DNA from: Anaerolineales bacterium
GTDB taxonomy: Bacteria; Chloroflexota; Anaerolineae; Anaerolineales; Villigracilaceae
Assembly: GCA_023382575.1 (NCBI GenBank)
Contig: JAHDWC010000009.1
Coordinates: forward strand, 1-47,369
DNA: 47,369 nucleotides
Reading direction: 5' to 3'
A program made the translations under genes and the position numbers. Shown here piece by piece: positions 29,530 through 47,369 of the stretch. Under the pieces are notes generated by a model. That model saw only the letters and a list, made by a program, of their open reading frames with translations, ran no database searches and had not been told where the DNA came from. The stretch's first letter is position 1; every line of letters starts with the position of its first letter.

Positions 29530-29988
29530 ATGAAATATCTGATTATCGCAGCCGATCCTCAACATGCGGAAGTTTTGACCGAGATCGCCATCGCCGCCAA
29601 ACGTCACTGGAATTATCCTGAAGCCTGGATTCAATTTTGGATTCCACAGTTAACAATTTCTTCAGAATATATTTCTTCTAATGAAGTTTGGATGATGACC
29701 GATGAGGGAAATCCGATTGCATTTTATACCTTGAGCCAGAATGAAGAAGGTTATGAACTGGGTCACCTTTGGGTCTTGCCTGAATACATTGGACAGGGGA
29801 TTGGCAGACAATTATTCAACCATGCCCTTGAAAGATGCAGGCTTCTCCATATCTCTGCTTTGAAAATTTATGCAGACCCGAACGCCCAGGCTTTCTATGA
29901 GAAAATGGGAGCGTACAAAGTTGGCGAACACCACAGCGAAGTGGATGGACAGCCGCGCATTTTACCCGTAATGGAGATTCAACTCTGA
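29530..29988 (+). CDS. GNAT family N-acetyltransferase
   Basis: A 152-residue acetyl-CoA-dependent acetyltransferase. The acetyl-CoA motif A is visible as LGHLWVLPEYIGQGIGRQLF, followed by the ALKIYADPNAQAFYEKMGAY motif B. The substrate is unknown. Its stop codon overlaps the tag start by one base (TGATG), so GNAT and tag were an operon before the mobile element arrived. Confidence 0.88.
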   Translation: MKYLIIAADPQHAEVLTEIAIAAKRHWNYPEAWIQFWIPQLTISSEYISSNEVWMMTDEGNPIAFYTLSQNEEGYELGHLWVLPEYIGQGIGRQLFNHALERCRLLHISALKIYADPNAQAFYEKMGAYKVGEHHSEVDGQPRILPVMEIQL

Positions 29989-30452
29989 TGACCTACTGTG
30001 ATTATTGCAACGCTCACCCTGAAGATACGTTCAATAAAAATTACCACGATACTCAATATGGCTTTCCCATCGACAATGATAATCTCTTGTTCGAGCGGCT
30101 GGTGTTGGAGATCAATCAAGCCGGGCTTTCATGGATCACCATCTTGAAAAAAGCGGATAACTTCCGCAAAGCCTACGATAAATTCAAACTTGAGAAAGTG
30201 GCGAAATATACCGAAGAAGACCGCGCCCGTCTGCTTGCTGATGCAGGCATCATCCGTAATCGGTTGAAGGTTAATGCGGCGATTGTCAACGCGCAGCGAA
30301 TCCTTGAATTGAAAAAAGAATATGGTTCGTTCAAAAACTGGCTGGATGCGCATCATCCGCTGACGAAGGATGAATGGACGAAACTATTCAAGAAGAACTT
30401 AACACAATATCCTCTTCGCTATTCGGTAATTCACATGACACATGCAATTTGA
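29988..30452 (+). pseudogene. tag: tag, 3-methyladenine DNA glycosylase I, truncated by element insertion
   Basis: Tag excises 3-methyladenine from alkylated DNA. The first 136 residues are Tag-like: Cys4 (MTYC) and YHDTQYG with the N-terminal zinc ligands, LEINQAGLSWITILKK with the catalytic Glu, and DAGIIRNRLKVNAAI. After LFKK (about base 30396) the frame continues into NLTQYPLRY..., antisense to the recombinase gene, where Tag should read something like TFxFxGG and end with the second His/Cys zinc pair. Those roughly 30-40 residues, with the C-terminal zinc ligands, are missing, so the product is probably inactive. The lost part is not found in the window. Confidence 0.85.
30388..30400. 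other. Candidate left attachment site (attL core)
   Basis: The junction falls inside TCAAGAAGAACTT: Tag codons for F-K-K end here, and the reverse complement encodes the last residues and stop of the recombinase. Serine recombinases cross over at a 2-bp core, which must lie within these bases. The exact dinucleotide cannot be set without the right end or an uninterrupted tag. Confidence 0.5.
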
Positions 30453-31953
30453 TTTGATCGCCAAGGTCATGAAATAGAACTTTTACCTGGAAAAGCTCAA
30501 GCAAATCACGCATATCTTCAAAGGTTGCTGCAGGTAAATTTCCTCGTACATTTGCTGAAATTTCCAGAATTCTATTTTCTAAATTAGGACTGATTTCCAG
30601 TTTAGTCAAATCTTCCTCAAGTTTTTCTTTTTCCTCCAAAAGAAGTTTTTGCTCAGATTCTAATTGGCGTATTTTTTCTTTGATCGCTGTCTTTACAGTT
30701 TCACCTTCAAAATCGGCAAGCTCATCAACCATTCGTTGAATTTTTTCAGATGTGGTATTTAAAATTTTGACTACATATCCATAGCGTTCCCGCTTGGGTT
30801 CTAATTCTTCTTCCCTTTTTTCTGACATATCGTGCACGCCCGCTAACAGTGCTTCTTCATCCATCAATAATGAAGTAAGCCACTCCCAGACTGCCTCATC
30901 TGCTTTTTCTATTTTTACACTTCGTTTTCGGTGCCAGCAAACGGCAATCTTGTTGTTGTAACTTGCACAACGATAATATGGAACAGCTCCATCCCATTTT
31001 CGGAAGCCATACATAGCCAGTTTGCAACTTGCGCATCGGATGTGACCTACAAGGAGATATTCATGTTTTCTATTACGCTTTGCAAACTCTTGATTACGCC
31101 TTGCCCTCACCTGTGCTGCGTCAAATGTGGCTCTATCCACCAGGGCTAGATGAGGCACATCAATCGGAATCCATTCCTCTTTTGGACGTGGAACCTGCCT
31201 TCCGTCTTTGAGGATTTGAGTTTTTGCGTAGTAGTTTACGCCGGCATATGTTTCATTGATCAGAATCATGCGGATTGAATTGGGTTGCCAAACGTTTGAA
31301 GACCGGGGTTTGATACCCATTTCATCAAGGCGTTTAGCGATTGCCATCAAGGAAAGCGGACCGCCGTCCTCATGAGTGGTATACCAGCGGAAAATTAATT
31401 TTACAATTTCGGATTCGAATGGATCAATAATCATTTCTGCATCGCGTGATTTTCCAATGCGCCCATACCCATAGGGGACTTGCCCGGTCATAACAGGTTT
31501 TTTATCATCCTTGGCTTTTTTGAGCCGCCCATTTTTTGTACGGTCAAGTATCTTTAATCTTTCGGTATGGGCAAGCATTGCAAAAATGCCATCTGAGATC
31601 ATGCCTTGAAGGTCATTATGAGATTGTCCGCGATCAACAAAATGAAGTTCAATATTTTTGTCCTGCCATTTACCAATTAATGGAACATAATCATAATAAT
31701 TTCTGGAGATTCGGTCCGAAGTGTAGGCAATTACAACCTGAGCCTCACGATTGGCAAGCATGGACTCAAGTTGGGTAAAACCAGGGCGATCCAGAGTGGC
31801 GCCGGATGTGTTGTCCACTATCTCACGGATGACGTGAAATCCCATTCTGTTTGCATAAGCACGACATTCTTCCAATTGAAAAGGCAGGCTATGCCCCTTT
31901 TCCGCTTGTTCATCTGTACTAACTCTGGTGTAAATAACAGCGTATTTTTTCAT
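30388..31953 (-). CDS. Large serine recombinase (integrase)
   Basis: A 521-residue site-specific recombinase that should integrate and excise the element. The N-terminal resolvase domain has YTRVSTDEQ with the nucleophile Ser12, and YTSDRISRNYYD; the helix after it reads ERLKILDRTKNG. A recombinase domain (about 160-280, PYGYGRIGKSRD) and a zinc ribbon with CASCK and CASYNN...CWH follow, then a coiled coil (about 375-470) typical of large serine integrases. AAAGGATG precedes the ATG. Its final codons lie in the attachment site, so the stop codon TGA (30388-30390) appears to come from host tag sequence. Confidence 0.93.
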   Translation of the reverse strand: MKKYAVIYTRVSTDEQAEKGHSLPFQLEECRAYANRMGFHVIREIVDNTSGATLDRPGFTQLESMLANREAQVVIAYTSDRISRNYYDYVPLIGKWQDKNIELHFVDRGQSHNDLQGMISDGIFAMLAHTERLKILDRTKNGRLKKAKDDKKPVMTGQVPYGYGRIGKSRDAEMIIDPFESEIVKLIFRWYTTHEDGGPLSLMAIAKRLDEMGIKPRSSNVWQPNSIRMILINETYAGVNYYAKTQILKDGRQVPRPKEEWIPIDVPHLALVDRATFDAAQVRARRNQEFAKRNRKHEYLLVGHIRCASCKLAMYGFRKWDGAVPYYRCASYNNKIAVCWHRKRSVKIEKADEAVWEWLTSLLMDEEALLAGVHDMSEKREEELEPKRERYGYVVKILNTTSEKIQRMVDELADFEGETVKTAIKEKIRQLESEQKLLLEEKEKLEEDLTKLEISPNLENRILEISANVRGNLPAATFEDMRDLLELFQVKVLFHDLGDQIKLHVSCELPNSEEDIVLSSS

Positions 31954-32307: not shown

Positions 32308-32470
32308 ATCGCCCTGATGGAATCCCACCAGGGCGAATCAAAGGGGCTGTATAATCAAACCAGCCCTTCCCTCCGCTACTACCGGTGGGTTGGGTAAGGG
32401 TCGTATCGGTGCTCTAACACCAGTGCGGCCCGTTTTTCTGGCTGGTAATTTCATTGCCAGCAATGAAATT
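32308..32470 (-). promoter_or_regulatory. Structured leader RNA of the recombinase operon
   Basis: The region between promoter and first gene can fold, as minus-strand RNA, into several hairpins: 32310-32320 with 32325-32335 (11 bp, one G-U pair), 32341-32349 with 32361-32368 (GGGCTG/CAGCCC), and a small one at 32409-32422. The first stem has a G-U wobble on the minus strand but an A-C mismatch on the plus strand, which favours a minus-strand RNA. No open frame longer than a few codons with a ribosome binding site is evident. Confidence 0.5.
32447..32470. promoter_or_regulatory. Operator-like perfect inverted repeat at the transcription start
   Basis: AATTTCATTG (32447-32456), CCAG, CAATGAAATT (32461-32470): a perfect 10-bp inverted repeat that begins right after the -10 box and covers the predicted start point. 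It could be a repressor site or a 5' hairpin of the transcript. Confidence 0.65.
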
Positions 32471-32498
32471 ATTATAGCACATTTATTCTACATATCAA
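32471..32498 (-). promoter_or_regulatory. Promoter of the recombinase operon
   Basis: Minus-strand TTGATA (32493-32498) and a perfect TATAAT (32471-32476) with a 16-bp spacer. Confidence 0.7.
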
Positions 32499-33608: not shown

Positions 33609-33745
33609 CTACACAAACATGATCCCAACCCTAAGAGTCCATTCAATCATTCGGCTCCAAAACCCGGTCAAGTAACAAAGGAAAATTTTCGTAGTCATCC
33701 CGTACTTCAAACCGTAGAGATCCCGTACTCCCAGATGCTATTTAT

Positions 33746-34296: not shown

Positions 34297-35067
34297 ATGT
34301 CCACCAAAATCATTTGTATTGCCAATCAAAAGGGCGGTGTGGGTAAGACCACCACCGCCGTTTCCCTTGCACATGGTCTTGTCCTTAAAGGCAAACGAGT
34401 ACTGCTCATCGACCTTGACCCACAGGGACAGTCCGCCACCGCCCTGGGGCGCAGTCCGGAACCAGGAGTCTTCTACCTGCTCACAATGGGTATGTCCCAA
34501 CAGGAAACCAGCTTTATTCAATCCTGGGTGCGCTTCTCCGGGCGGGAGGGATTGCAGATCCTGCCGGGGGATCAGCAGACGATGGCAGCCCAGACTGTTT
34601 TGAATGCCCAAGACCGATCGGTCTCGGCAATAAGGCAGACGGTCAGCCGCTTCTTCAAGGACGGACCTGACTATATCCTCTTCGATACCGCTCCGAGTGT
34701 GGGCGGGATCCAGGAACGCGCGGTCTGGGCGTCAGACCTTGTCATCGTGCCGACTGCCACGGAATTTCTCTCTGCGGATGGCGTCGGCAAGGTGCTGGGC
34801 ATGATGAGCATCCTGCAATCCAAAAAGAACTGGCGCGGCAATTTGCTGGGCATCCTGCCGACCTTCTACGACGAGCAAACGAGGGAAAGCAAGGCGACCA
34901 TTGAGGATTTGAAGGCACGTTTTGCCAACAGTCTATTGCCGCCCATCCATCGCTCGACCCTGTTGCGTGAATGCGCGGCGCAGGGGCAGACCATCTTCGA
35001 GATGGATGAATTGTGCCGGGCAGCCAAGGAATATCAGGCGCTGGCGCAAATCGTCTTGAAGTACTAG
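34297..35067 (+). CDS. ParA family partition ATPase
   Basis: Walker-type ATPase that uses nucleoid DNA as a track to position plasmids or other cargo. The 256 residues show the deviant Walker A KGGVGKTTT, the LIDLDPQGQSA motif (A'), and LFDTAPSVGG (Walker B region). There is no N-terminal HTH, so it belongs to the shorter, type Ib-like or orphan group. A protein with two RHH-like units follows 9 nt later and is the likely centromere-binding partner. GGGAG precedes the ATG. Confidence 0.93.
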   Translation: MSTKIICIANQKGGVGKTTTAVSLAHGLVLKGKRVLLIDLDPQGQSATALGRSPEPGVFYLLTMGMSQQETSFIQSWVRFSGREGLQILPGDQQTMAAQTVLNAQDRSVSAIRQTVSRFFKDGPDYILFDTAPSVGGIQERAVWASDLVIVPTATEFLSADGVGKVLGMMSILQSKKNWRGNLLGILPTFYDEQTRESKATIEDLKARFANSLLPPIHRSTLLRECAAQGQTIFEMDELCRAAKEYQALAQIVLKY

Positions 35068-35076
35068 GAGGACAGA

Positions 35077-35682
35077 ATGAGTAAACGCCGTTCCCCGTTT
35101 GAAACTTCCAATGAAACTCTGCCCGTTGTGGCAGCGCCACCGGACCTATACGAATCCCTGCGCGTGGCCGAACCCAGAAAACGAAACCGTCACTGGGAAA
35201 AGCAGCATCAAAGCCACAAAGCCGTCTATCGCGGGGTCGATCCCAAACTATCTTTGCAGGTCAAATCCATTGCCAGCGATCTGTGCGTGCCGGAAGGTGA
35301 AGTCGCACGCGCGATCATCGAACACGCCCTGCGTTGTTATGAACGTGGCGAGTTCGATCTCAACCCACAACCCAATCCATATCGTTTGCGTATGACCTTA
35401 TTTCCAACGCATGACTCTCTTTCCATGCCAACACGTTCCAGAAGTTCCAAACAAAAACCCGAAGCACTGTGGCGGGTGATCACCACCTGGCGCGGTTTCC
35501 CGCCTGAACTCAAACGCGAACTGTCTGCCCTGGCATCCGAGGATGGATTGCATGTGCCAATTGGCGAACTGATCACCGCCTTATTACGGTTCGGCTTGAA
35601 GGAATACCAACACAAGCGATTGACCCTCACACCGATCCAAAAACGGACATCTTTCACATTGTCTCTGGATGGTGCAAAATGA
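35077..35682 (+). CDS. Protein with two RHH-like repeats, probable ParB-type partner
   Basis: A 201-residue basic protein with an internal duplication. Residues about 45-90 (YRGVDPKLSLQVKSIASDL, EVARAIIEHALRCYERGEF, LNPQP) match about 140-190 (WRGFPPELKRELSALASED, GELITALLRFGLKEYQHKR, LTPIQ): a strand, two helices and an L-x-P tail in each. This is a ribbon-helix-helix-like layout as a single-chain pseudodimer. Directly after parA, it is the natural candidate for the centromere-binding protein, though no family is recognised. AGGAGG precedes the ATG. Confidence 0.65.
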   Translation: MSKRRSPFETSNETLPVVAAPPDLYESLRVAEPRKRNRHWEKQHQSHKAVYRGVDPKLSLQVKSIASDLCVPEGEVARAIIEHALRCYERGEFDLNPQPNPYRLRMTLFPTHDSLSMPTRSRSSKQKPEALWRVITTWRGFPPELKRELSALASEDGLHVPIGELITALLRFGLKEYQHKRLTLTPIQKRTSFTLSLDGAK

Positions 35683-35726
35683 GTTTCCACCAAAAACGAA
35701 AAAATAAAATCGAACATGAAATCAAG

Positions 35727-35755
35727 GCAGGCGGCACGGACTACGTGCCGCCTGC
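35727..35755. repeat. Perfect 12-bp inverted repeat before the Rep-like gene
   Basis: GCAGGCGGCACG (35727-35738), GACTA, CGTGCCGCCTGC (35744-35755). It is followed by a run of CGCCCACG / CGCCTGCG / CGCCTACG near-repeats to about 35802. The stretch 35683-35899 is otherwise without a convincing gene; a 75-codon frame starting at 35679 (ATGA overlap with the previous stop) crosses it but its composition is poor. It may hold a partition site, an operator or a terminator. Confidence 0.55.
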
Positions 35756-35899
35756 GCTTTGTCCACGTCCCGCCCACGTTTCCGCCTGCGTGCCCGCCTA
35801 CGCCAACGGCACAGGAAAGGCTGGGAGGCGTTCCGCCTTCCATATGCGATGTGTGCGACCCTGGGTGGGAAATCACCCGATTTTGACTTGGGAGGCAGC

Positions 35900-37822
35900 A
35901 TGCTGAATCTCGAAGACATTTGGAGTCAGGTGCTACATCAGCTTCAACTGGATATGCCGAAAGCCTCCTATGAAACCTGGGCAAAAGACACCCAGGCGCT
36001 CTCCCTAGAAAAGAATGTCCTGACGATCTGCGCGCGCAATGCCTATGCCAAAGACTGGCTGGAATCGCGCATGACGTCAATCATCCAGAACATCCTGAAA
36101 GGCATCCTTGATCATCCGGTGTCGGTGCGTTTTGTTTCGAGTGAAAATCCGACAATGGTGGATGAGGTGGATGGGGAACCAGCCGATGAAGAGAGCGAGT
36201 TGGACATCGAGCCCGTGCAGTGGCTGGATTACGACCGCATCGTGCAACCGCATAAACAGGTTGTGGTGAAGGGTTATTTGAGAAGACTAGGGATGGAGAT
36301 TGGACCCAAAGCCATCTGGCTGTATGTTGGGTTTCATCAAGCCGCCTGGCGGGCGCAGGAACAAAACCCATCCGGGATCAAGACGTTGCACAGCCAGGAT
36401 GTGCTGCGCTTCAGCGGCTTGAGCAATGGCGCCTTCTGGCGGTTACTCAAACATACCGTGGTTCAGGGAAGCCTGCAGGGTTTGGTACAACGCGCCGAAA
36501 AACAGGACGCCCGCCGCTTCCGACGTGGGCGCGATGGTCGTCCGCATCGCGCCCCGATCCGTTATCAGGTCTTCATGACTCCGCGCCTGACTCGCGCCGA
36601 CGCAACTGCGGTACATGCAAGGATGAAGGCGCTGCTTGAAAAACACAATTCCATCACCAACGTCCTGCAGGAGATGTTGGGTGTCAGTAATGTCATGGAA
36701 CTGCTTGCTCCCTTGGATGTGAAGTTATCCCATCCCCCGTTGAACACCGTGATGGACATGGCGCAGATGGAAACAGGCTCAACCTTTTCACCTGAAAACG
36801 AGCGTCTGGCACAGCAACTGCACCGCCGCATCATCAGCGCGCTGGGGGATATCCACATTCCCCATTACTTCATCACGCAAACCATCCGGCGCCATAACCT
36901 GACCCCGGCGCAAGCCTGGCTGATCACCGTCTCGCGTGACATGGCATTCATCAACTCACGTACTGGAGAAAGACGGGACATCGTAACCTTCAAGCGCGGC
37001 TATCTGGAAATGGCGGAACTGATCGGTTCGGGTCGTTACAAGACCGTGCAAGCCTGGTTGAACCCGCACTGGAATGAGCAACGCGGCGGGAACCTGTCGC
37101 GCTTTCTGATGGAGATGCCCATGCCTGATTCCAATCCGGATATCGATCTGCGGGTCGAGTCGATGCCGCGCGCGTTTCGGGTGCTATTGGAGGAACCGTT
37201 GGACGCAAATGGGGGCATTAGGCTGGACGCAAATGGGAGTCATATGGCAGACGCAGATGGGAGTATTAGTTGGACGCAAATGGGGGCATTCGTGGACGCA
37301 AATGGGAGTCATATGGTGGACGCAAATGGGAGTGCTTTAAACACTTTAAAACACGCACCCAACACTGATAAGAAAAACACTTCCACCACCCAACACAAGA
37401 AAAAAGCGGAGGAGGCGGTGCCGTCGTTTTGGGAACTTGAGGCGCTGCTTGGACAAAATGACGTGCATCCCAAAGTCCAGAAGGAACTACTCGACGTGCA
37501 AGCCTCCGTGCATGCCTTTGTCTCGTGGGTGCTGTATGTCGCCAGTCCGAAAAGTGGAAATCTTTCCGATCCGCTCGGCTATGCCCTCAGCCGTCTGCGC
37601 GAACATCCCCTGCGCGAGGCACGCGGCGTCTTCCGGCAATTTGCCGACCTGTCGCCAGCGGAATTGCTGCTCCTGATGGAGTCGACGCCGCACAGTTCCT
37701 ATGCCCTGCCGGGACAAGTGGAGCATCCCCTGGCACGCGCATGGAAAAAGGCAATGGGATCGCACAATCCCATGATGCCGCAAGTCTACAAAATTCTCTT
37801 TGGGAACGAAGGGGAGGGATGA
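35900..37822 (+). CDS. DnaA domain-I protein without AAA+ motor, probable replication initiator
   Basis: A 640-residue protein. Residues 1-80 (IWSQVLHQLQLDMPKASYETW, TICARNAYAKDWLESRM) are a DnaA N-terminal domain (domain I), which in DnaA binds the DnaB helicase and DiaA/HobA-like factors. No Walker A/B and no DnaA domain IV follow. Residues about 115-245 (LRRLGMEIGPKAIWLYVGFH, DVLRFSGLSNGAFWRLLKH) look like a winged-helix DNA-binding region as in Rep proteins; the middle is helical. Codons about 434-479 hold the DNA repeats listed at 37200-37337. GGGAGG precedes ATG 35900; the upstream in-frame ATG at 35759 is rejected. Confidence 0.8.
   Translation: MLNLEDIWSQVLHQLQLDMPKASYETWAKDTQALSLEKNVLTICARNAYAKDWLESRMTSIIQNILKGILDHPVSVRFVSSENPTMVDEVDGEPADEESELDIEPVQWLDYDRIVQPHKQVVVKGYLRRLGMEIGPKAIWLYVGFHQAAWRAQEQNPSGIKTLHSQDVLRFSGLSNGAFWRLLKHTVVQGSLQGLVQRAEKQDARRFRRGRDGRPHRAPIRYQVFMTPRLTRADATAVHARMKALLEKHNSITNVLQEMLGVSNVMELLAPLDVKLSHPPLNTVMDMAQMETGSTFSPENERLAQQLHRRIISALGDIHIPHYFITQTIRRHNLTPAQAWLITVSRDMAFINSRTGERRDIVTFKRGYLEMAELIGSGRYKTVQAWLNPHWNEQRGGNLSRFLMEMPMPDSNPDIDLRVESMPRAFRVLLEEPLDANGGIRLDANGSHMADADGSISWTQMGAFVDANGSHMVDANGSALNTLKHAPNTDKKNTSTTQHKKKAEEAVPSFWELEALLGQNDVHPKVQKELLDVQASVHAFVSWVLYVASPKSGNLSDPLGYALSRLREHPLREARGVFRQFADLSPAELLLLMESTPHSSYALPGQVEHPLARAWKKAMGSHNPMMPQVYKILFGNEGEG
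37200..37337 (+). repeat. Six iteron-like repeats inside the Rep-like gene
   Basis: Copies start at 37200, 37224, 37248, 37271, 37293 and 37317, consensus TGGACGCAAATGGGAGT plus a weaker CATA/ATTA end. Spacings are 24, 24, 23, 22 and 24 bp, about two helical turns. Copies 1, 2, 3, 5 and 6 are read as DANG/DADG; copy 4 is read in another frame as WTQMGAF. The DNA is kept while the protein is not, so selection is on the DNA. An A-rich stretch with CTTTAAACACTTTAAAACAC (37335-37354) follows. Confidence 0.85.
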
Positions 37823-37823
37823 C

Positions 37824-38954
37824 ATGCAGCTACATTTTCTGATCACCTCCGAGCAACGCGCCACAGGCGCGATGTTCATGGAGTCGTTGAATGACACGGT
37901 GTTGGCGTTCATCTATCCTTCAGATGGCGCGCGCACCTTCCATACCTTCTTCTGTCCGCCCATGCGCATCATCGCCCTGAACGCCGAGGGACAGGTAGTC
38001 TTCGATGAAGTTATCGACAAATGGAAATGGGTGCGATTACCGGTATGTCGGTATGTGATCGAGACGGGGCCGAAGGTGGAGTACCGGCCGTTCATGAACA
38101 CCATCCTTTCCCTTTCCCCTGAACTGCCCCAAGTTGGGGCCCTTGAACCCGGCACCGGCATGGACCAACTCCTGTTCTCGCTGCTGGCAGAAGCCGTCGC
38201 CGACATGCGCCGCATCCGTGAAGTGCATCGAAACAAGATCGACCCAAAGATCCAACGCTGGCACTTTGAAGCCTGGGAACGCGGGCAAATTGTAAGTTCG
38301 GCGGGTTTCATTCTGGATTTTTCCGAAGCCTGCGATCTGCCAAACGGCGCGGTGAAGCTTTCCTATTCGGTCTTGAAAGCCGAGGAGCCCTACATCGACG
38401 AGATCGTGGCGGCTTCAGTGGGCGGCATCCCCTGGCGGCATGAATTTCCCAGTCACTGTATGCGCTGCGGCAAGCGGGCTTCCTGGCGACCGATCCTCAC
38501 GCCAGCATCCAGATCCCCGGTGGAAATTCTGTGGCGCTACCAGCGACCGGAGAACGCCATTCCGATCTGTCATCACTGCACGGCAACTCTGCGCATTCTA
38601 CGAGAGGAGTCCGTGCGGATCGAGTTGGGCTGGGGTTTGTGGGGACCACGTTTCGAGGCGTTATGGCAGTGGCATCGCGCAAGAAGGAATAAGAGCCTGC
38701 CAACGAACTGGGATCTGTACACCCATCCGCTCTGGCCGCGGGAGTATGGAGGTGAGAGTTGGGAAACTGGCAGCGGTGCATTGAAATTCGCCGAACCGCG
38801 ACCTCCCCATCAGGTCCTGCGCAGTGAACAACAGATGCAGACTCTGCGCCGGGTCTTGTACAGCAGGTTATTCCGCGGGCGACAGCCAAACGAGGCCCCT
38901 CTGCAGAAATTAGTAGACTTTCGGCATGACATTTCAAAAGGAGACTCTCGATGA
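37824..38954 (+). CDS. DUF192-like/zinc-ribbon protein
   Basis: A 376-residue protein of unknown function. The first 85 residues match the DUF192 pattern: SEQRATGAMFMESLNDTVLA (compare RxxGLM...L), PSDGARTFHTFFCPPMRIIAL and LNAEGQVVFDEVIDKW. The middle is helical. At about 215-260 two Cys pairs, HCMRCGK and ICHHCTA, form a probable zinc ribbon. GGGGAGGG precedes ATG 37824, one base after the Rep-like stop, and the 3' end overlaps the next gene by 4 nt (ATGA). The DUF192 match is by eye. Confidence 0.6.
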   Translation: MQLHFLITSEQRATGAMFMESLNDTVLAFIYPSDGARTFHTFFCPPMRIIALNAEGQVVFDEVIDKWKWVRLPVCRYVIETGPKVEYRPFMNTILSLSPELPQVGALEPGTGMDQLLFSLLAEAVADMRRIREVHRNKIDPKIQRWHFEAWERGQIVSSAGFILDFSEACDLPNGAVKLSYSVLKAEEPYIDEIVAASVGGIPWRHEFPSHCMRCGKRASWRPILTPASRSPVEILWRYQRPENAIPICHHCTATLRILREESVRIELGWGLWGPRFEALWQWHRARRNKSLPTNWDLYTHPLWPREYGGESWETGSGALKFAEPRPPHQVLRSEQQMQTLRRVLYSRLFRGRQPNEAPLQKLVDFRHDISKGDSR

Positions 38955-39832
38955 ATTTCTTTGCATTCCTGGGCGCATTGAGTTTGAGCGTAGTGGCGTT
39001 CGAACTCTTGAGCACGTTTCAATCCGCCTTCAGCACCTTTGGTGGCAACCGCCTGAGCAACTTCACTGCACAACCCCAAGCCAAACGCCGCTCCACATGG
39101 GCCGCGTTATTGGTGGCGATACTACCTGGTCGCTTCGATCCGGACCAGGCAAAGAACATGAGCGATGTGATTAGCCTGCTCAGACGAGCTGGCTATCCCT
39201 ATGATACGCCCGGCGAATTCTATGCTGCCGCGATCCGCGACTTCTCGACTTTCCTCTTCGTAGGCGGGATGCTTGCAGGTGCAATGGCGGCGCTGAACAT
39301 GCTGATGGCAGCGCCGGTGATCGCCCTGATCTTTATCTTCCTGGGCATGCGCCGTCCCTATGTACGCATGAAGACCCTGGCGAAGAAACGCGCCGAGTCG
39401 CTGCGCAATAACATGCTGATCGGATTGTCGGTATTGAGTTCGTTATTGTCATCCGGGGTCGGCGTGCAGGAAGCCCTGCGGCGAGCCTCGACCGTGGGCG
39501 GTCCGTTCTGTAATCTGCTTGGCTTGCTTGTAGCACGCATGGAGGTCGAGGATTTCACCAAAGCCATTGACGTGACCCGTGCTCACCTGCCCGATCCCAG
39601 GGATGTGGAAGCCAATCTCTTCCTGCGCGACATCCATGACTTCTTTGCCAACAACCGCCCGGTCCTGTCCAGCGTGCAAGGTTTACAGGAGTCGGTGCAT
39701 CGTTCCGTGGTGGAAGCGACTGAGGAACGCGCGGCGCTGGTGCGCCAGCGTGCCGGCTTGTTCGGCGTGATGGCGGTGCTGGGGCTGGTGCTGGCAATCA
39801 TCGCACCCTTCATGGGCTCAGGATTGATGTAA
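38951..39832 (+). CDS. TadB/TadC-like pilus assembly membrane protein
   Basis: A 293-residue protein of the type II secretion F (T2SSF) fold used as the inner membrane platform of Tad/Flp pili. It has one N-terminal helix, a pair near 95-130 (FLFVGGMLAGAMAALNMLM, PVIALIFIFLGM), the cytoplasmic helical T2SSF domain (RAESLRNNMLIGLSVLSSLL, SGVGVQEALRRAS) and a C-terminal helix. Such proteins work with a TadA ATPase and Flp pilin; an Flp pilin gene lies at 47169, the ATPase is not in view. It overlaps its neighbours by 4 and 1 nt. Confidence 0.75.
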   Translation: MNFFAFLGALSLSVVAFELLSTFQSAFSTFGGNRLSNFTAQPQAKRRSTWAALLVAILPGRFDPDQAKNMSDVISLLRRAGYPYDTPGEFYAAAIRDFSTFLFVGGMLAGAMAALNMLMAAPVIALIFIFLGMRRPYVRMKTLAKKRAESLRNNMLIGLSVLSSLLSSGVGVQEALRRASTVGGPFCNLLGLLVARMEVEDFTKAIDVTRAHLPDPRDVEANLFLRDIHDFFANNRPVLSSVQGLQESVHRSVVEATEERAALVRQRAGLFGVMAVLGLVLAIIAPFMGSGLM

Positions 39833-41274
39833 TGCCCGGCTCGCGCTATCCAAATGGATTTCATTCCCTCTGGCGTTCGCTTGCGTACTGGATCTTTGTC
39901 ACGTTGGCAGTGATCGCTGCCTTTATCCTTGTTCGCAAGTTAACCCTATGTTGGACTCTGACTCACCTGCCAGGCATCCCCACGGCAGAGTGCGCCATTC
40001 AAACCAACCCAACGTCCGAACTGCCGGCAGCCCTCGATGAAATAGATTCCAATGCCGTATTGATCAAACCCTCTGTTCCTGAGTTGGAGCTACCCAAATG
40101 GGATGGCGCCAGCCGGATCAATATTGCCATGTTTGGCTTGCGCGGCGATGAGCAGGATAGCTGCCCAAACTGCACCGATACGATCATGATCCTGACCGTC
40201 GACCCGCTCACAAAGACCGCCGGGATGCTGTCCATCCCGCGCGATATATGGGTCCATATTCCAGGGACAGGGTATGGGCGCATCAACACCGCCTGGGCAA
40301 TTGGCGAGAATGCCAAGCTGCCGGGCGGTGGACCGGAACTGGCAATGCAGACTGTCTCTCAATTTATCGGGGTTCCGATCCACTATTATGTGCAGGTGGA
40401 TTTTGGGACATTTGTATCTTTCATCAACCTGATCGGTGGTATCGATGTCTATGTGGAAGAACGCATGGTGCTCGACCCGGAAGGTGAAGGAGCGGATCAT
40501 TTCGTTTTGAAGCCAGGAGATTACCGCCATCTGACTGGCAAGCGCGCCCTGGCGTATGCGCGCTGCCGGCATGAATCACAGGGTTGTTCGGGCGGGGATG
40601 TGGGACGCGCCAAACGGCAACAGCAGGTCATCCTCGCGATCCGGGATAAGGTGCTGCAACCGGAAACCTTTGCCAGCCTGATCTCCCAAGCCCCGCATCT
40701 CTATGCCGAATTTTCCTCCGGGGTTCGCACCAACCTGCCACTGGAAGATGCGCTCCGAATGGCGGTACTTGCAAAGGATATCCATGTGGAGGACATCCAG
40801 CAGGGCGTGATCGATACTACAATGGCGATCCCAACCGATACGACCATCAATGGTGTGCCTGCCAATGTGCTGCGTCCGGTTCCCGATCTGATCCGCATCC
40901 TGCGCGATGAGATATTCGTGCCCGGTGGACCCTTGAGCCCAATGGCGCAGGGCGATGCCGTGACGTTGATGCAATCTGATGAGGCAAAGATACGATTGGT
41001 CAACAACACTTACACTGTTGACCTTGAACAACGCGTAGCTGCTTTTCTGAACACCCAGGGTATGCAGGTGGTGGAGTTTGGTGGGACGACCGGATATTCC
41101 AGCCATACAAAGGTGACCTTATATACGTCCAAGTTATATGCCCTAAAGTATTTGAAGGAATTATTTGGATTGGAGAGTTCACAGATCGTGATCCAGCCTG
41201 ACCCGTCATCCAAAGTGGATTTGGAGATACGACTCGGGGAGGGCTGGCTGGGCAGACACCCGGCGGGGTATTAG
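39832..41274 (+). CDS. LytR-CpsA-Psr (LCP) family protein
   Basis: LCP enzymes transfer polyprenyl-phosphate-linked glycopolymers to peptidoglycan or proteins outside the cell. The 480 residues show one N-terminal membrane helix (LAYWIFVTLAVIAAFILV), the LCP domain with RGDEQDSCPNCTDTIMILTV, SIPRDIWV, RINTAWAIG, GGIDVYVEE and YARCRHESQGCSGGDVGRAKRQQ (conserved Arg/Asp for the pyrophosphate), and a C-terminal LytR_C domain (about 385-465). Extra Cys pairs could form disulfides. The start overlaps the TadC-like stop (TAATG). In a mobile element it may decorate or open the cell wall for a pilus. Confidence 0.9.
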   Translation: MPGSRYPNGFHSLWRSLAYWIFVTLAVIAAFILVRKLTLCWTLTHLPGIPTAECAIQTNPTSELPAALDEIDSNAVLIKPSVPELELPKWDGASRINIAMFGLRGDEQDSCPNCTDTIMILTVDPLTKTAGMLSIPRDIWVHIPGTGYGRINTAWAIGENAKLPGGGPELAMQTVSQFIGVPIHYYVQVDFGTFVSFINLIGGIDVYVEERMVLDPEGEGADHFVLKPGDYRHLTGKRALAYARCRHESQGCSGGDVGRAKRQQQVILAIRDKVLQPETFASLISQAPHLYAEFSSGVRTNLPLEDALRMAVLAKDIHVEDIQQGVIDTTMAIPTDTTINGVPANVLRPVPDLIRILRDEIFVPGGPLSPMAQGDAVTLMQSDEAKIRLVNNTYTVDLEQRVAAFLNTQGMQVVEFGGTTGYSSHTKVTLYTSKLYALKYLKELFGLESSQIVIQPDPSSKVDLEIRLGEGWLGRHPAGY

Positions 41275-41293
41275 TGGAAAATCCAATCACCGA

Positions 41294-41309
41294 TGGGTAT
41301 GCGATACCC
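41294..41309. promoter_or_regulatory. Palindrome with TGGGTAT half-site
   Basis: TGGGTAT (41294-41300), GCG, ATACCC (41304-41309) uses the same half-site as the operator at 32754-32770 but with the halves turned around. It lies between the LCP gene and the AT-rich cargo. Confidence 0.35.
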
Positions 41310-41403
41310 TAAGATAGATAGGATACATCCTCCCGCTGCCCAATCCTTATCCCTTACCCGTTTGGGTTGTCAAATTAATGTATAACACAGAACAAATGTC
41401 CGC

Positions 41404-41409
41404 TATAAT
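41404..41409 (+). promoter_or_regulatory. -10 box of the cargo pair
   Basis: A perfect TATAAT lies 14 nt before ATG 41424 with no Shine-Dalgarno, implying a leader of under 10 nt. No clear -35 hexamer is seen. Confidence 0.5.
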
Positions 41410-41423
41410 AGTTATATAACGCT

Positions 41424-42305
41424 ATGTACTACCGAAGGAAAATACTCCTTGCCTTGATAGAAGTTTTCGGTGGCAGTCTGCAAAGCACGGACTGTGAAAA
41501 ACTTCTATTTAACTTCTGCCAGCAGACAGGCAAGAATCATTACGACTTTTTTCCCTACAAGTTCGGACCTTTCAGTTTTCTCTCGTATTATGACAAGCGA
41601 AGAATGATTGATTTAGGTCTACTGAAACAAGCGGACGATTTCCAACTCAGCACCAAGCATTCATACCTAAACGAACTCACTCCAGCGGACAAAACCGCAC
41701 TGCTGAAATTCAAAGCACAAATTGGCGATTTGCGCGGCGATAAACTCGTCAAGAAAATTTATCGTGAGTTCCCCCAATATACTTCCCGAAGCAAAATCGC
41801 GGGCAGACATTTCACCGCAGACGAAATCCGTCAACTTCAATTCGCATGGAATACAGACACCAAGCCTGGCGTGTTTTCCATCGGCTACGAAGGCTTGACC
41901 ATTGACTCCTTCCTGCACAAACTTATCGCCAATAACATCACCATTGTCGTGGACGTTCGCAATAATCCACAATCCATGAAATATGGATTTTCCAAGAAGA
42001 GTTTCAAGCAATACATCGAAAGCGCAGGGATGAGATACATCCATATTCCCGAACTTGGAATCCCATCCTCCATGCGCAAGGGACTTGGCGAAAGCGTTTC
42101 ACATAAAGCCTTATTCAAGGCATACGAAAGCAAACTTTTGCCAAATCACGAAACTGAAATCAAGCAATTAATTGACTTGACCAACCAAAACGAGCGGATT
42201 GCACTGGTCTGTTTTGAAGCCGACCATAATTTCTGCCATCGCCACACATTGATCGAACATTTGCAAGAGAATAAATCATTCAAGCGAGCCGTTATTCACT
42301 TATAA
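41424..42305 (+). CDS. Panacea-like domain fused to DUF488
   Basis: A 293-residue two-part protein. The front (about 1-140: RRKILLALIEVFGGSLQSTD, KLLFNFCQQ, FFPYKFGPFSFLSYYD, IDLGLL) resembles Panacea/DUF4065-type antitoxin domains (compare the KLLYFA...YGP pattern). The back (about 145-293) is DUF488: VFSIGYEGLTIDSFLHKL, VVDVRNNPQS, HIPELGIPS and LVCFEADHNFCHR with conserved Cys/His. DUF488 proteins are small, often near nucleic-acid enzymes, of unsettled function. It is AT-richer than the element core, with the OB-like partner 18 nt downstream. Confidence 0.75.
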   Translation: MYYRRKILLALIEVFGGSLQSTDCEKLLFNFCQQTGKNHYDFFPYKFGPFSFLSYYDKRRMIDLGLLKQADDFQLSTKHSYLNELTPADKTALLKFKAQIGDLRGDKLVKKIYREFPQYTSRSKIAGRHFTADEIRQLQFAWNTDTKPGVFSIGYEGLTIDSFLHKLIANNITIVVDVRNNPQSMKYGFSKKSFKQYIESAGMRYIHIPELGIPSSMRKGLGESVSHKALFKAYESKLLPNHETEIKQLIDLTNQNERIALVCFEADHNFCHRHTLIEHLQENKSFKRAVIHL

Positions 42306-42323
42306 ACCCACAAGGGGGAATAT

Positions 42324-43169
42324 ATGACTTACCTTCCCGACGAACTTCCGAACGCCAGAGTATTGATTACCGTAAAAACGTATCCTCTGCCGTCACGCAG
42401 TTACACGGAATTGGTTTGCACAGCAGGGTTGTTGGACGGCGAAAAATGGATACGGATGTATCCAATCCCATTTCGATTTCTACAAGATGACCAGAAGAAA
42501 TACCCGAAGTATTCATGGGTGAATATAAACTTAACGCGCAAGAAAGATGACTTCCGTCCTGAAAGTTACAGCCCTAAACTCGGCGTGGACGAACCAATAA
42601 ATGTTGGGCAACATATAGGCACAGATAATGATTGGGCGGCGCGGAAAAGTTATGTTCTCAAAGAAGTTTTCACTTCGATGAATGAACTGATTGCGCTTGC
42701 CAAAGACCCAAACCACAGAAAATCACTTGCCACCCTAAAACCTGCCCGCATTGTGGATTTTGTAATTGAAGAAGATGAACGTGAGTGGAAACAGGAATGG
42801 CAAGACCAACTCAAGCAATTCAATATGTTTGAACTACCAACTCAACAGGGGCATAAGAAACTTGTCAAGAAACTGCCTTACAAATTCTCGTATCGCTTTT
42901 TCTCCGAAGGCGATAAAGAACCACGCAAGATGATGATCGAAGATTGGGAAATCGGGGCGTTATTCTGGAATTCTTTGTACAGAAAAGATGGCAATGAACA
43001 AGCTGCTTTGGAAGATGTCAAAAAGAAATATCTCGAAGAGTTTACTGAAAAAGATTTACACTTCTTCGTTGGTACAACCCTGAAATTTCACGCTATGTCA
43101 GCACCAAACCCATTTGTGATTATTGGCGTATTCTATCCACCCAGGACCGATCAACTTTCATTGTTATAA
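42324..43169 (+). CDS. Dual-OB-like protein, partner of DUF488
   Basis: A 281-residue protein. The opening (ARVLITVKTYPLPSRSYTEL, CTAGLLDGEKWIRMYPIPFR, SWVNINLTRKKDDFRPESY) is the pattern of the dual OB-fold family commonly seen next to DUF488 genes. The C-terminal half (RFFSEGDKEPRKMMIEDWEI, FFVGTTLKFHAM, PFVIIGVFYPP) is also conserved-looking. OB folds suggest nucleic-acid or nucleotide binding. AAGGGGG precedes the ATG. Function unknown; part of a two-gene cassette. Confidence 0.7.
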   Translation: MTYLPDELPNARVLITVKTYPLPSRSYTELVCTAGLLDGEKWIRMYPIPFRFLQDDQKKYPKYSWVNINLTRKKDDFRPESYSPKLGVDEPINVGQHIGTDNDWAARKSYVLKEVFTSMNELIALAKDPNHRKSLATLKPARIVDFVIEEDEREWKQEWQDQLKQFNMFELPTQQGHKKLVKKLPYKFSYRFFSEGDKEPRKMMIEDWEIGALFWNSLYRKDGNEQAALEDVKKKYLEEFTEKDLHFFVGTTLKFHAMSAPNPFVIIGVFYPPRTDQLSLL

Positions 43170-43318
43170 ACCAACTTTTTATAGAAAACCGTACAGTTCT
43201 CAGACTAAATAATACTCACATCTATCCTCTTTACAAAGCTTTTTAGGTCTTCATGCCTTCAATTCATTTTAAGCCCAAGGCCTTTTATTTTGAACTAATC
43301 CATAAAGGTATATAACCC

Positions 43319-45523
43319 ATGAATACAAAAAAAAATTTATTTATCACAGTTGTAGTTAGTTTGTCTTTGGCGTGTTCCACTATAACGTCTCTCGTTTCAC
43401 CCGAAGAAACAAAAGAAGTTAAGAATATCAATTTGGAACTTGTGGGGAATATTGGAGGTATAAACAACGCTATTCAAGTGCAAGAAAATCTTGCTTATAT
43501 TGGCGAAGGGCTTAGTATGGCAATTATAGACTTCACAGACCCGCAAAAGCCAGTTTTCGTCAGTAAAACAGACGGCTCAAGTGATGTCGTGAGCGACATA
43601 GGCTTATCCGATTGCTGCGCGTTTGTTGCTAATGCAAGAGGTGGATTATTTGTATATGACATAACCAATCCCCAGGAAACAAATCTAATTTCTAACTGGG
43701 GCAACGGAGAAGATATTCAAAAAATCTCCGTTCACAACGACGTTGCATTGATTGAATACAATGAAAACAAATATAAGCTACTTGATATTTCTGACCCTAC
43801 TAAAATTTCATTACTGGCGGAACTTCCAGTCCAATATTTAAGTTCATTTGCCTTTATTGAAAACTATTTATATACATCTTCAACTGAAGACATGTTAAGA
43901 ATTTACGATTTATCAAATTTACCAGAAGTAAAAGACCTTGGCACAACAAAAATCACTGGCGCAGTGTCATTTTCTCGTATGATTTTAACTGAAAACCTTG
44001 CATTACTGGTATCAGAAGTTAATGCGCCAATAGAGCAGAAACCTGAGGATTTACCTGGCTACCACTCTTCCACAATCTATTTGCTTGATATAACTAACAA
44101 AGAAAACCCCTTACTGGTTGGCAGTATCGACGCTGTAGAATCTGACCCTAATCATGATCAATGGACTACGTGGACAAAAAACCTAGTGTTACAAAATGGG
44201 TTTGTTTTTGCAATAGCAGACCTTGCAAAATCCATGTATGCGATTGACTTAAACAATCCACAAAAACCTATAGTGACAGATGTGCTAGAACTAGGCAGTT
44301 ATGGGCAAATAGTTGCAGGCGTTCAATCTGATAACAAAAATGTTTATGTAGCGTGGTCTGGCGGAGAAGTTACAGCCATTGACATAAGTGATCCGAGTGA
44401 TTTGACTGTGTCTGGAGTTTACTATGGCGCAAGCGTAGTACAGGATTTTACTCTTAACGATAACTTCGCATACATGACCTCAGACAACAGCGGTTTTCGA
44501 GTTGTTGATCTAAGTGATCCAAGTAAGCCAATTATAGTTGGCTCCATACTTGGCGCAGGCGAAAGTTACGGAAAAATAACGAGTAAATTAGATAAGTATT
44601 TATACATTGAGAATTATTTTGACGGCACAATCATTGTCGACATTTCAAATCCCACACAACCGATTCAGGCTGCTTTCTGGAATGATATAGATCCACCATT
44701 AGTAATTGAAGAAAACATTGGCTATGTTTTATATGATGACGAACGAATCTTCCAGGTAATAAATTTAAATAACCCTCTTGAACGTCCTGTTTCTAACAAC
44801 ATATCTTCTCTTAGTATAAAAACTGATGACTATCCACGTAATCTGCAAATAAAAGACGAGTATGTATATATAGCTACCAACTACGATATTTATATAGCAG
44901 GCTACCAATATCGCGAACCACCCTCGTATATGTTCCGAGTGGGGCATCTTAACTATGATGCTTCTGATGAAATTAAAGACTTTACAATAGTTAGAAATTA
45001 CGGATATATATTCAAAAAAGATAATCTAAACGCAGGGATTACAAAGATACTTGATATATCTTCTCCTCGTGACCCAGAAATAATTCAAGAATATGGTTTT
45101 GGAAGAGGGATAGTCAGCTTAGATCAATTCAACAATGATTTCGCTCTATATGACACAAAATTATCATACACAATTTCTGATGCAAATTATTTTTCAAGTC
45201 AATATATTGATATATACAATATTAGCAACCCACTAAAAATAAGACTGTCAGAGCACTACATTCTTGATTATTATCATGACGTTGAAAGGCTATATGTTCA
45301 CAACAATTACTTTTATGTAAGTTCAATTCAGGCAGGATTGATGATATATAAGCCGCAGGAGTATCCCATCTCGCAGCCCGTAACACCATCCGCTAATAAT
45401 AATGAAACAAAAGAGAGTGATGATAAATTTTCGAGCAGAATCTTAATAATAGTTTTATCATTTGTAATATCTACATTCTTTTTTATTTCTTTTGTTCGGA
45501 AAGCTAAAAGGTCTCGAAAATGA
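43319..45523 (+). CDS. LVIVD-repeat lipoprotein with C-terminal membrane helix
   Basis: A 734-residue exported protein. A signal peptide ends in the lipobox LSLAC (Cys19). The body is made of LVIVD-type beta-propeller blades, for example AIIDFTDPQKPVFV, LLDISDPTKISLL, AIDISDPSDLTVS, VVDLSDPSKPIIV, ILDISSPRDPEII; roughly a dozen are seen. A membrane helix (ILIIVLSFVISTFFFISFV) and a basic tail end the protein, an unusual pairing with a lipid anchor. Very AT-rich. It overlaps the next gene by 4 nt. Probably a surface adhesion or binding protein. The 149 bp before it hold nothing recognisable. Confidence 0.85.
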   Translation: MNTKKNLFITVVVSLSLACSTITSLVSPEETKEVKNINLELVGNIGGINNAIQVQENLAYIGEGLSMAIIDFTDPQKPVFVSKTDGSSDVVSDIGLSDCCAFVANARGGLFVYDITNPQETNLISNWGNGEDIQKISVHNDVALIEYNENKYKLLDISDPTKISLLAELPVQYLSSFAFIENYLYTSSTEDMLRIYDLSNLPEVKDLGTTKITGAVSFSRMILTENLALLVSEVNAPIEQKPEDLPGYHSSTIYLLDITNKENPLLVGSIDAVESDPNHDQWTTWTKNLVLQNGFVFAIADLAKSMYAIDLNNPQKPIVTDVLELGSYGQIVAGVQSDNKNVYVAWSGGEVTAIDISDPSDLTVSGVYYGASVVQDFTLNDNFAYMTSDNSGFRVVDLSDPSKPIIVGSILGAGESYGKITSKLDKYLYIENYFDGTIIVDISNPTQPIQAAFWNDIDPPLVIEENIGYVLYDDERIFQVINLNNPLERPVSNNISSLSIKTDDYPRNLQIKDEYVYIATNYDIYIAGYQYREPPSYMFRVGHLNYDASDEIKDFTIVRNYGYIFKKDNLNAGITKILDISSPRDPEIIQEYGFGRGIVSLDQFNNDFALYDTKLSYTISDANYFSSQYIDIYNISNPLKIRLSEHYILDYYHDVERLYVHNNYFYVSSIQAGLMIYKPQEYPISQPVTPSANNNETKESDDKFSSRILIIVLSFVISTFFFISFVRKAKRSRK

Positions 45524-46644
45524 ATAAACTTTCTGAATGGTTTCAAAAAATACCGACATGGATAACAGGTGCTATTAGCTTTTTGAGCGCGATAATCGGT
45601 TTCTTTGTGCTCATACAAGAAAACTATTATATTGGAATTACTGTCTTAACCTGCACAATAGCTGTTACGCTGCTTTTAATTGGCTTTTATATCAGATTCG
45701 CAAAGACGCCACCATTAATTGAAGGCGGAAAAGGGGTGTACCTATACCCTAAGTATCGCGCCATAGGATTATCTATTTTAATCTTAATGCCAATATTTTT
45801 TTTGTTGTTACTCACCTCAAAACAAGCTCAAAATGTAATGGCTTATGCTATATATGGGACACCTACAGCAACATCATTGGCAACAACAAGCCCACATGTT
45901 ACTATGTTACCAATGACGTTAACTGCAAGTCCAAACGCTATTGATATAACAAATACACCATTTGCGACTCCTGCTATAGCCCCAACGATCTCCTCAGAGT
46001 TTATCAATGTAACTTCTTTTTTTCCAAAGGCAATTGAACCTGAAGCGAATAATGGTTTTTTATGCCATCACTATATGATCCTAAATGAAAATGAGAGTTT
46101 TACTGATTTTGAATCTTTACCAGAAAACTTCTTTACAATTTTGGAACAACATGATTTATTCAACGAAAAACCTATGGAGATTATGGTTTCAAATAATGAT
46201 GAAAACGATTCTATTAGGATAGAGAATAAATTACTAATAAAAATTATCAGCTTTCAACCACTTAAGCAATTGCGCGCTATTGGCGCACGATGTAACGAAG
46301 GAGGAGGAAATCTTGTTGACATTGGTGTAATAAGGAATTTTCCTGATCTATCCATAAACCAATCAACAGAAAACGAAACCTATGTAACGAGAATGGCTGA
46401 ATATCCTTTTTTTGTAATTAAGCCTGGTGAATTTGAAGTTTTCAATTTGGTCGTTAGGGCAAAGCAACCAGGAATATACAAATTCCAACTAGGATTTGAA
46501 TCCACACAAAAAGAAACAGATATTGTATGGCTACCTGAAAACTATGCTTTATTTTCCCCCGAGATATTAGAAATATTCCTTGTAGATACCCGTCAGACTA
46601 AAACAATGGTCTTCAAAGATGGCAATTGGGAATATGAAAAATGA
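45520..46644 (+). CDS. Hypothetical membrane protein with outer domain
   Basis: A 374-residue protein with three N-terminal hydrophobic segments (WITGAISFLSAIIGFFVLI, IGITVLTCTIAVTLLLIGF, IGLSILILMPIFFLLLL), a Thr/Pro-rich linker and a C-terminal extracellular beta domain of about 200 residues (including PGIYKFQLGFES). No family is recognised. It starts inside the stop of the LVIVD gene (ATGA), so the two proteins are probably made together and may interact at the cell surface. Strongly AT-rich like its partner. Confidence 0.7.
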   Translation: MNKLSEWFQKIPTWITGAISFLSAIIGFFVLIQENYYIGITVLTCTIAVTLLLIGFYIRFAKTPPLIEGGKGVYLYPKYRAIGLSILILMPIFFLLLLTSKQAQNVMAYAIYGTPTATSLATTSPHVTMLPMTLTASPNAIDITNTPFATPAIAPTISSEFINVTSFFPKAIEPEANNGFLCHHYMILNENESFTDFESLPENFFTILEQHDLFNEKPMEIMVSNNDENDSIRIENKLLIKIISFQPLKQLRAIGARCNEGGGNLVDIGVIRNFPDLSINQSTENETYVTRMAEYPFFVIKPGEFEVFNLVVRAKQPGIYKFQLGFESTQKETDIVWLPENYALFSPEILEIFLVDTRQTKTMVFKDGNWEYEK

Positions 46645-47168: not shown

Positions 47169-47348
47169 ATGTTCAAGTTACTACAACGTTTCATCCGCGA
47201 AGAAGATGGTCAGGACTTTGCAGAATACGCCCTGATCCTGGGCGCCATTGGCGTGGTCGCGATTGCCGTGATCGCCCGCTATCGCAACGAACTGATCGCC
47301 GCCTTCGAAGCCGGCATCGAAGCCCTGCGCATGGCGCGAGGCGGATAG
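47169..47348 (+). CDS. Flp/Fap-type pilin
   Basis: A 59-residue type IVb pilin, starting MFKLLQRFIREEDGQDFAEY and continuing ALILGAIGVVAIAVIARY. The Gly-x-x-x-x-Glu-Tyr arrangement after the basic leader is the Flp processing site, with the Glu at mature position about 5, followed by a hydrophobic helix. AAGGAG precedes the ATG. It is GC-rich like the TadB/C-like gene at 38951 and would be its pilus subunit. It is shorter than most gene-finder cut-offs. Confidence 0.85.
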   Translation: MFKLLQRFIREEDGQDFAEYALILGAIGVVAIAVIARYRNELIAAFEAGIEALRMARGG

Positions 47349-47351
47349 AGA

Positions 47352-47369
47352 TGTTCCGCTGGAAGGAAA
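47352..47369 (+). CDS. Start of a further gene, cut by the window edge
   Basis: An ATG three bases after the pilin stop opens a frame reading MFRWKE. A TadE-like or other pilus gene would be expected here, but six codons cannot identify it. Confidence 0.3.

Follow-up and report, generated by a model that had tools for sequence, protein, structure and literature searches.

The window (the whole 47,369-nucleotide stretch of Anaerolineales DNA analyzed here) carries an integrated element with a partition gene and an initiator-like gene, rep, that contains an array of six direct repeats (Table 1). The element was inserted into the chromosomal tag gene by a serine recombinase. Homology to congeners with an intact tag breaks off at positions 30379 to 30400 in 7/7 loci compared, and the remainder of the tag open reading frame (ORF), up to 30452, is element sequence. 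The missing 3′ part of tag lies at G000:C25:9076-9222 (88% identical to the query), immediately preceded by a complete, divergent tag at G000:C25:8486-9034 (L151). These tag pieces suggest that the opposite end of the element is on contig C25. The element seems to bring its own full tag copy at that far end and thereby to replace the function of its target. Beside this presumed right end (L151, 489 to 7935) is a pPIWI_RE three-gene island (REase, Z protein, and pPIWI protein) that is likely defense cargo.

The backbone of the element (34297 to 41274) recurs in relatives and is then followed by variable cargo and, in L010, by Tad-type pilin genes. Pilus-type genes of the TadC-like, TadE/G-like, and Flp-like kinds (the TadC and Flp matches being weak) occur at 37824 to 47369 of the window and at 18504 to 19734 of L010, and the DNA of the pilin stretch is kept in several relatives. 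The LytR-CpsA-Psr gene adjoins the replication module. The region between the recombinase and parA, parts of which are kept in relatives, contains two 12-bp arms that form a perfect inverted repeat around a 2-bp gap (32446 to 32471) and a 17-bp sequence that occurs twice, at a distance of 23 bp (33690 to 33729). The 201-amino-acid (aa) protein encoded between parA and rep had no match in Pfam, NCBIfam, or PHROG; our guess that it is ParB-like comes from its position and two stretches resembling ribbon-helix-helix motifs. A search of 29.5 to 47.4 kb with Rfam gave no match at gathering scores.

Table 1. Coordinates of the features of the element and its insertion site in the window
Feature	Position	Strand	Basis
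Interrupted chromosomal tag (DNA-3-methyladenine glycosylase), 5′ part	29988..30402	+	DNA homology to uninterrupted tag
Large serine recombinase, left end of element	30388..31953	-	Pfam Resolvase, Recombinase, Zn_ribbon_recom
ParA-type partition ATPase	34297..35067	+	Pfam AAA_31 5.9e-35; PHROG ParA-like 5.5e-53
201-aa protein between parA and rep	35077..35682	+	Position; two ribbon-helix-helix-like stretches by eye
rep, initiator-like protein, 640 aa, contains the array	35900..37822	+	ORF, homologues
DnaA domain I (aa 6-67)	35915..36100	+	Pfam DnaA_N 2e-11; model match to 4tps
Central domain (aa 105-432), proposed iteron-binding	36212..37195	+	Inferred; model of moderate to low confidence
Iteron 1	37202..37216	+	GACGCARATGGGRGY match
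Iteron 2	37226..37240	+	GACGCARATGGGRGY match
Iteron 3	37250..37264	+	GACGCARATGGGRGY match
Iteron 4	37273..37287	+	GACGCARATGGGRGY match, other reading frame
Iteron 5	37295..37309	+	GACGCARATGGGRGY match
Iteron 6	37319..37333	+	GACGCARATGGGRGY match
AT-rich stretch, CTTTAAACAC/CTTTAAAACAC repeats, proposed unwinding element	37335..37399	+	Synonymous identity 0.913 (aa 480-500); contains rep's most AT-rich 40-mer
C-terminal helical domain (aa 512-635)	37433..37804	+	AlphaFold blocks mostly pLDDT 76-89
Conserved element backbone: 376-aa protein, T2SSF/TadC-like protein (weak match), LytR-CpsA-Psr protein	37824..41274	+	Conservation in relatives
Flp/Fap-like pilin at contig end	47169..47348	+	Pfam Flp_Fap E 0.0086, below its cutoff

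An array of direct repeats inside rep

The array lies near two thirds of the length of rep, about 1.3 kb into the gene. An earlier note, made from the letters of the sequence, had described six copies roughly 22 to 24 bp apart, the fourth shifted and read as WTQMGAF, followed straight away by A-rich repeats, and our analysis agrees on each point. The six matches to GACGCARATGGGRGY, which has no other copy in the window, are direct repeats with spacings of 24, 24, 23, 22, and 24 bp; copy 4 is out of frame with the other five, giving the WTQMGAF peptide, and CTTTAAACAC and CTTTAAAACAC repeats begin at 37335, directly after the array. Six copies were reached in 0/100 dinucleotide shuffles (mean, 0.01), which rules out a chance origin. 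The range given earlier, 37200 to 37354, suits the repeat block but not the limit of constraint, which reaches ∼37399 (see below). GC skew, proposed at the same time as support for an origin, shows no clear switch. DnaA boxes (TTWTNCACA) occur three times in the window, which is the chance level, and none is near the array.

DnaA domain I at the N or C terminus of Rep family members

The host protein had been said to contain a DnaA domain I, and this was confirmed: in the whole Rep protein, the single Pfam match at an E value of 0.01 is DnaA_N (residues 6 to 67; E = 2e-11). In the structural model of Rep (13 sequences; mean pLDDT, 61), residues 1 to 81 match the DnaA domain I of 4tps (Z = 15.9; rmsd, 1.4; 81 residues aligned). 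Over residues 2 to 95, this domain shares 40% identity with a DnaA-like ORF encoded by the same genome, and Rep as a whole scores 37.8 bits against NCBIfam DnaA, under the cutoff of 343.9.

For the remainder of the protein, residues 370 to 509, which include the array-coded part, have a pLDDT of <50, and the array-coded segment is probably disordered, judging from the model. In the same model, of moderate to low confidence here, helices and hairpins at residues 121 to 225 and helices at 317 to 430 look, by eye, like winged-helix folds. The central domain modeled alone (mean pLDDT, 57.0) gave no Foldseek match at an E value of 0.001, at this low model confidence, and the matches from a whole-protein structure search were filled by domain I. 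The central domain of the window member also had no Pfam match; at an E value of 1, HTH_23 was found in 2/8 central domains of a wider set (A2, described below), with a best E value of 0.0033. No known fold was assigned to the C-terminal domain (residues 512 to 635). We infer that it is the central domain that binds DNA.

The position of domain I differs between members. Among 28 genes, it is N-terminal in 11, C-terminal in 12 (L086, L088 to L092, L094 to L096, L099, L100, and L108), and not found in 5, one of which (L097) is truncated by a contig end; for the other four, no separate DnaA_N ORF was found in their loci. In locus L123, which holds gene L088, the Pfam DnaA_N match falls at residues 758 to 816 of 834 and is hence C-terminal; L088 may carry two DnaA domain I copies in tandem (residues 666 to 739, and 758 to 816 of the fuller ORF). 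In an unrooted maximum-likelihood tree of 28 genes, the nine C-terminal members included and L097 are separated from the rest by a branch with support of 100/98. The L086 row used for this tree extended beyond the domain. In bacteria that have been studied well, the helicase is contacted by DnaA domain I, and a domain I that works from either end of the protein fits a tether that recruits another protein.

The array is constrained as DNA in close homologues

A scan of genome contigs yielded 16 loci with close homologues of rep. The exact 24/24/23/22/24 spacing, including the shifted copy 4, is present in 14/16 of these loci. Of the remaining two, L015 is on a contig that runs out ahead of the block, and L018 (39% identical) has a different array. 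Four public contigs (L012, L013, L014, and L015) all stop no more than about 100 bp from the array. This is the pattern expected if several element copies share the array DNA, as if assembly had failed at the repeat.

As a measure of constraint on synonymous sites, we calculated the share of same codons at identical residues in the 15 nonidentical close genes. This share was 0.947 over the array (aa 434 to 479) and 0.913 over aa 480 to 500, compared with 0.679 (aa 1 to 433) and 0.709 (aa 501 to 640) outside the block, where the top 46-aa window reached 0.765. In comparisons across the two clades, one of which includes the window, the share was 0.933 for the array and 0.857 for the AT-rich stretch versus 0.544 and 0.561 elsewhere. 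Synonymous codons are thus frozen over both the array and the AT-rich stretch, which indicates selection on the DNA as DNA, up to ∼37399. The two clades differ at 29.8% of aligned residues over aa 1 to 433 yet have the same repeat spacing; the duplication is therefore not recent.

Arrays recur in distant homologues with other units and frames

Distant homologues were found with a profile of the central domain from which DnaA domain I was excluded (A2). At an E value of 1e-5, the profile had matches in 34/396 genomes of the class and in 27/400 genomes of a phylum sample, of which the 13 newly found were weak and partial. We scanned 24 genes for arrays, leaving out most window-type near-copies, fragments, and weak partial matches. 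The scan ran over the part of each ORF between 42% and 86% of its length, or over the final 40% in the case of L097. At least four closely spaced copies of a 13-mer (two mismatches) are present in 19/24 genes, and the copies are in mixed frames in 14/19; four of these 14 are closely related to each other, namely, the window, L052, L075, and L079 (the copy counts for the window and L090 contain one stray copy beyond the array). The other five arrays (L055, L084, L085, L086, and L097) are wholly in frame.

The repeat units vary by lineage at the same place in the gene. A GCRAATG-like core is common to the window and the nearer L018, L051, and L055; by eye, it is missing from the remote units TGGCGCTACTTGC (L082), AACCGCCAAAAGG (L096), and GAAAAGGAAACCG (L092). 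Spacings vary as well, with 23 and 31 bp in L096 and 31 to 33 and 42 bp in L092; in L051, spacings of 23 and 22 bp take turns, which places neighboring copies in alternating frames.

Synonymous shuffles (60 per gene) never reached the observed copy number in 15/24 genes, including L091, where the copies are widely spread and do not form an array. Elsewhere, the numbers of shuffles reaching the observed count were 45 for L053, 1 for L056, 6 each for L084 and L085, 3 for L086, 29 for L087, 40 for L089, 9 for L094, and 27 for L095. In a control set of 20 dnaA-like genes (445 to 582 codons with a DnaA_N match), at most three copies were found, all within the range of the shuffles, which rules out that such arrays are a general trait of genes with DnaA domain I. 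The array is real, resides at the DNA level, and is recurrent in the class.

These comparisons bear on whether the repeats function in the protein. The earlier note had held that the DNA rather than the reading frame is conserved and had suggested aligning homologues; in that alignment, the array persists as DNA while unit, frame, and encoded peptides differ between homologues and synonymous sites are frozen, and no case of retained protein repeats with diverged DNA, which had been named as a refutation, was seen among the close family. A repeat functioning as protein (DANG/WTQMG), its DNA likeness due to recent duplication, would agree with the shared frame of 5/6 copies in the window and with the distant members that are fully in frame. 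This explanation has next to no probability in our view: the mixed frames, the frozen synonymous sites, the differing peptides, the low-confidence model of the segment, and the spacing conserved across the two divergent clades all speak against it, and we rejected it on frames, synonymous sites, and shuffles.

Repeat spacing follows the helix and the array adjoins an AT-rich stretch

For helical phasing, we used 16 lineages, obtained from the 24 genes by dropping six near-duplicates and also L089 and L091, in which no array is present. The 45 distinct spacings of ≤70 bp gave a vector strength of 0.72 with a peak at a period of 10.5 to 11 bp, a strength reached by 0/5,000 random sets and 0/5,000 sets of codon multiples. 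Across all 79 spacings of the 16 lineages, 37 are not divisible by 3. Repeat spacing follows helix turns, not codons. According to a review (PMC5043065), plasmid iterons are generally helically phased, and upsetting the phase can inactivate an origin.

We ranked the best 40-mer starting no more than 60 bp after each array against the whole gene. This 40-mer was the most AT-rich of the gene in 12/16 lineages and was within the top 0.7 to 3.1% of the gene in the remaining four (L018, L056, L082, and L088). By eye, the AT-rich stretches of homologues have TTAAAC-like and CTCTTAAAAC-like repeats in common.

The hallmarks of an origin inside an initiator gene, DNA-conserved tandem repeats within the gene and an adjacent AT-rich stretch, are both present in rep. 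In the explanation that we favor and consider probable, an integrated plasmid-like element would replicate from an origin made up of the array and the AT-rich stretch, inside the gene for its own initiator. The main rival to an origin is a partition site (centromere) that is bound by the 201-aa protein together with ParA and lies within rep by accident. The genes for ParA and the 201-aa protein are just upstream of rep and conserved alongside it in many loci, and helix-phased direct repeats also suit the centromeres of small ParB-type proteins. However, the ParA of the window is unmatched in 8/38 loci, mostly contig-limited, and 6/8 of these have an array: L018, L121, L123, L125, L130, and L131 (the last five with genes L086, L088, L090, L096, and L097). 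The widest of the loci without a ParA match are L123 (9.6 kb upstream and 7.8 kb downstream) and L018 (10 kb upstream); in L130, a short CbiA match 3.5 kb from rep means that a ParA may have been missed. An AT-rich neighbor is also unexpected for a centromere. The six array loci without a match to the window ParA weaken the partition reading, and we regard it as improbable.

The repeats could instead act mainly as an operator or roadblock for Rep transcription or copy number control, with the origin elsewhere. Iteron arrays often double in control and initiation, and this array is inside a transcribed gene. Its position ∼1.3 kb into rep is, however, remote from the start of the gene, the constrained AT-rich stretch that follows is as found in origins, and the region from 31.9 to 36.0 kb contains no repeat family of more than three copies. 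A purely regulatory role is, in our judgment, very improbable.

Chromosomal copies and a plasmid-borne relative

The queries used found no full-length member of the Rep family, and hence no free replicon carrying one, among 72,556 plasmid and 50,697 phage records or in IMG/VR; plasmid-like replication of the element is thus a proposal. A phage origin of the family accordingly has no support in the phage records or IMG/VR, where single-protein scans reach close relatives only. The members that we found are on long contigs. Genome G027, which consists of a single contig, carries a divergent copy in its chromosome in addition to two of the window type; therefore, the proposed origins would be tolerated or silent there. 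In two large relatives, G278 and G304, where the member might be on a secondary replicon, it is on a contig other than that of the best dnaA-length DnaA_N match (C1) and is ∼2.6 kb from a ParA-type gene.

A short relative is carried by a natural plasmid of the same class, the 212-kb AP024711 of Leptolinea sp. strain HRD-7. Its product, hrd7_34450, resembles the window Rep in having DnaA domain I and, in addition, a partial central domain (profile positions 203 to 289 of 309; E = 5.2e-13), with a Soj/ParA gene ∼6 kb away, but it has 295 aa and no internal array. Just before hrd7_34450 is a 27-bp repeat with 2.2 copies (L059, 8896 to 8955), possibly the plasmid's own origin. No replication gene is annotated in AP024711 among the genes listed in positions 1 to 206291 of 212187, in a table described as incomplete.

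Comparison with known origins inside initiator genes

The plan of an origin within an initiator gene is known; the protein family is without a Pfam name. The earlier note had likened the locus to phage lambda, and the likeness stands for repeats inside an initiator gene followed by an AT-rich stretch but not for their orientation. According to PMC5043065, the lambda origin lies in the O gene, with repeats beside a 40-bp A+T-rich region that opens. The lambda repeats are inverted and bind dimers. The repeats in the window, by contrast, are direct, and no inverted repeats were found in 36900 to 37900. No relation to lambda O emerged from the domain searches either, with DnaA_N being the only Pfam match (E value of 0.01) and the sole PHROG match to Rep spanning residues 6 to 79.

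Because the lambda repeats are inverted and those of the window direct, the RepA_N initiator Rep of pSK41 is at least as close a parallel. As portrayed in a review (PMC5703833), the origin repeats of pSK41 are central in rep, which encodes a DNA-binding domain, an origin-coded linker that is dispensable as protein, and a C-terminal domain; that text also names the pT181-family rolling-circle plasmids as having the origin inside the initiator gene. The window Rep resembles the RepA_N initiators in its central repeats and domain-linker-domain order and differs from them in its fused DnaA domain I, its mixed-frame repeats, and its Chloroflexota lineage. RepA_N (PF06970) was found neither in Rep (Pfam at an E value of 0.01) nor in the eight central domains of A2 (Pfam at an E value of 1). 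By analogy, then, the element would work like pSK41 Rep and lambda O while standing outside both families by the domain and repeat tests made.

In Rep_3-type plasmids, the iterons are mostly outside the rep gene. Iteron plasmids of this and similar types, as treated in PMC5043065, share with the element helix-phased direct repeats beside an AT-rich region, whereas the window Rep has no Rep_3 match in Pfam and the array no nearby DnaA box. The likeness to chromosomal DnaA is confined to domain I; unlike DnaA, Rep has no AAA+ or DnaA DNA-binding domain (Pfam at an E value of 0.01).

Proposed mechanism and significance

If the array and its neighbor are an origin, the most likely mechanism is that Rep copies bind the six iterons via the central domain. 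Helical phasing would place all bound copies on the same side of the DNA, and the strain from their stacking would melt the AT-rich stretch; the fused DnaA domain I would then recruit the replicative helicase, allowing the excised element to replicate. As the recruiting domain is fused to Rep, full-length host DnaA may be dispensable. The origin-coded segment of the protein may be a mere disordered linker, in which case the DNA would be free to evolve as binding sites. We put at even odds the broader proposal that Rep represents an undescribed class of Chloroflexota initiators, whose members join the helicase-recruiting domain I of DnaA to one end or the other of an iteron-binding core; such initiators would open an origin in their own gene and load the helicase without host DnaA.

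In the literature searched (open-licence only), we did not find this Rep family, a DnaA domain I at either end of an initiator, or phased iterons that drift across frames. By title or abstract, no paper on the family was present among the matches listed for Anaerolineae/Chloroflexota integrative elements, plasmids, and iterons, for the DnaA N-terminal domain, and for serine recombinases.

The locus offers a clean natural case of DNA binding sites that evolve across coding sequence, constrained by the turns of the helix and not by codons. The combination of frame-mixed, helix-phased repeats and a frozen AT-rich stretch is a signature for origins and initiators in lineages without known replicons. 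With its movable DnaA domain I, the family also lends itself to testing whether that domain alone suffices for helicase recruitment. To our knowledge, few replicons are available for genetic tools in Chloroflexota, and the family may provide such replicons.
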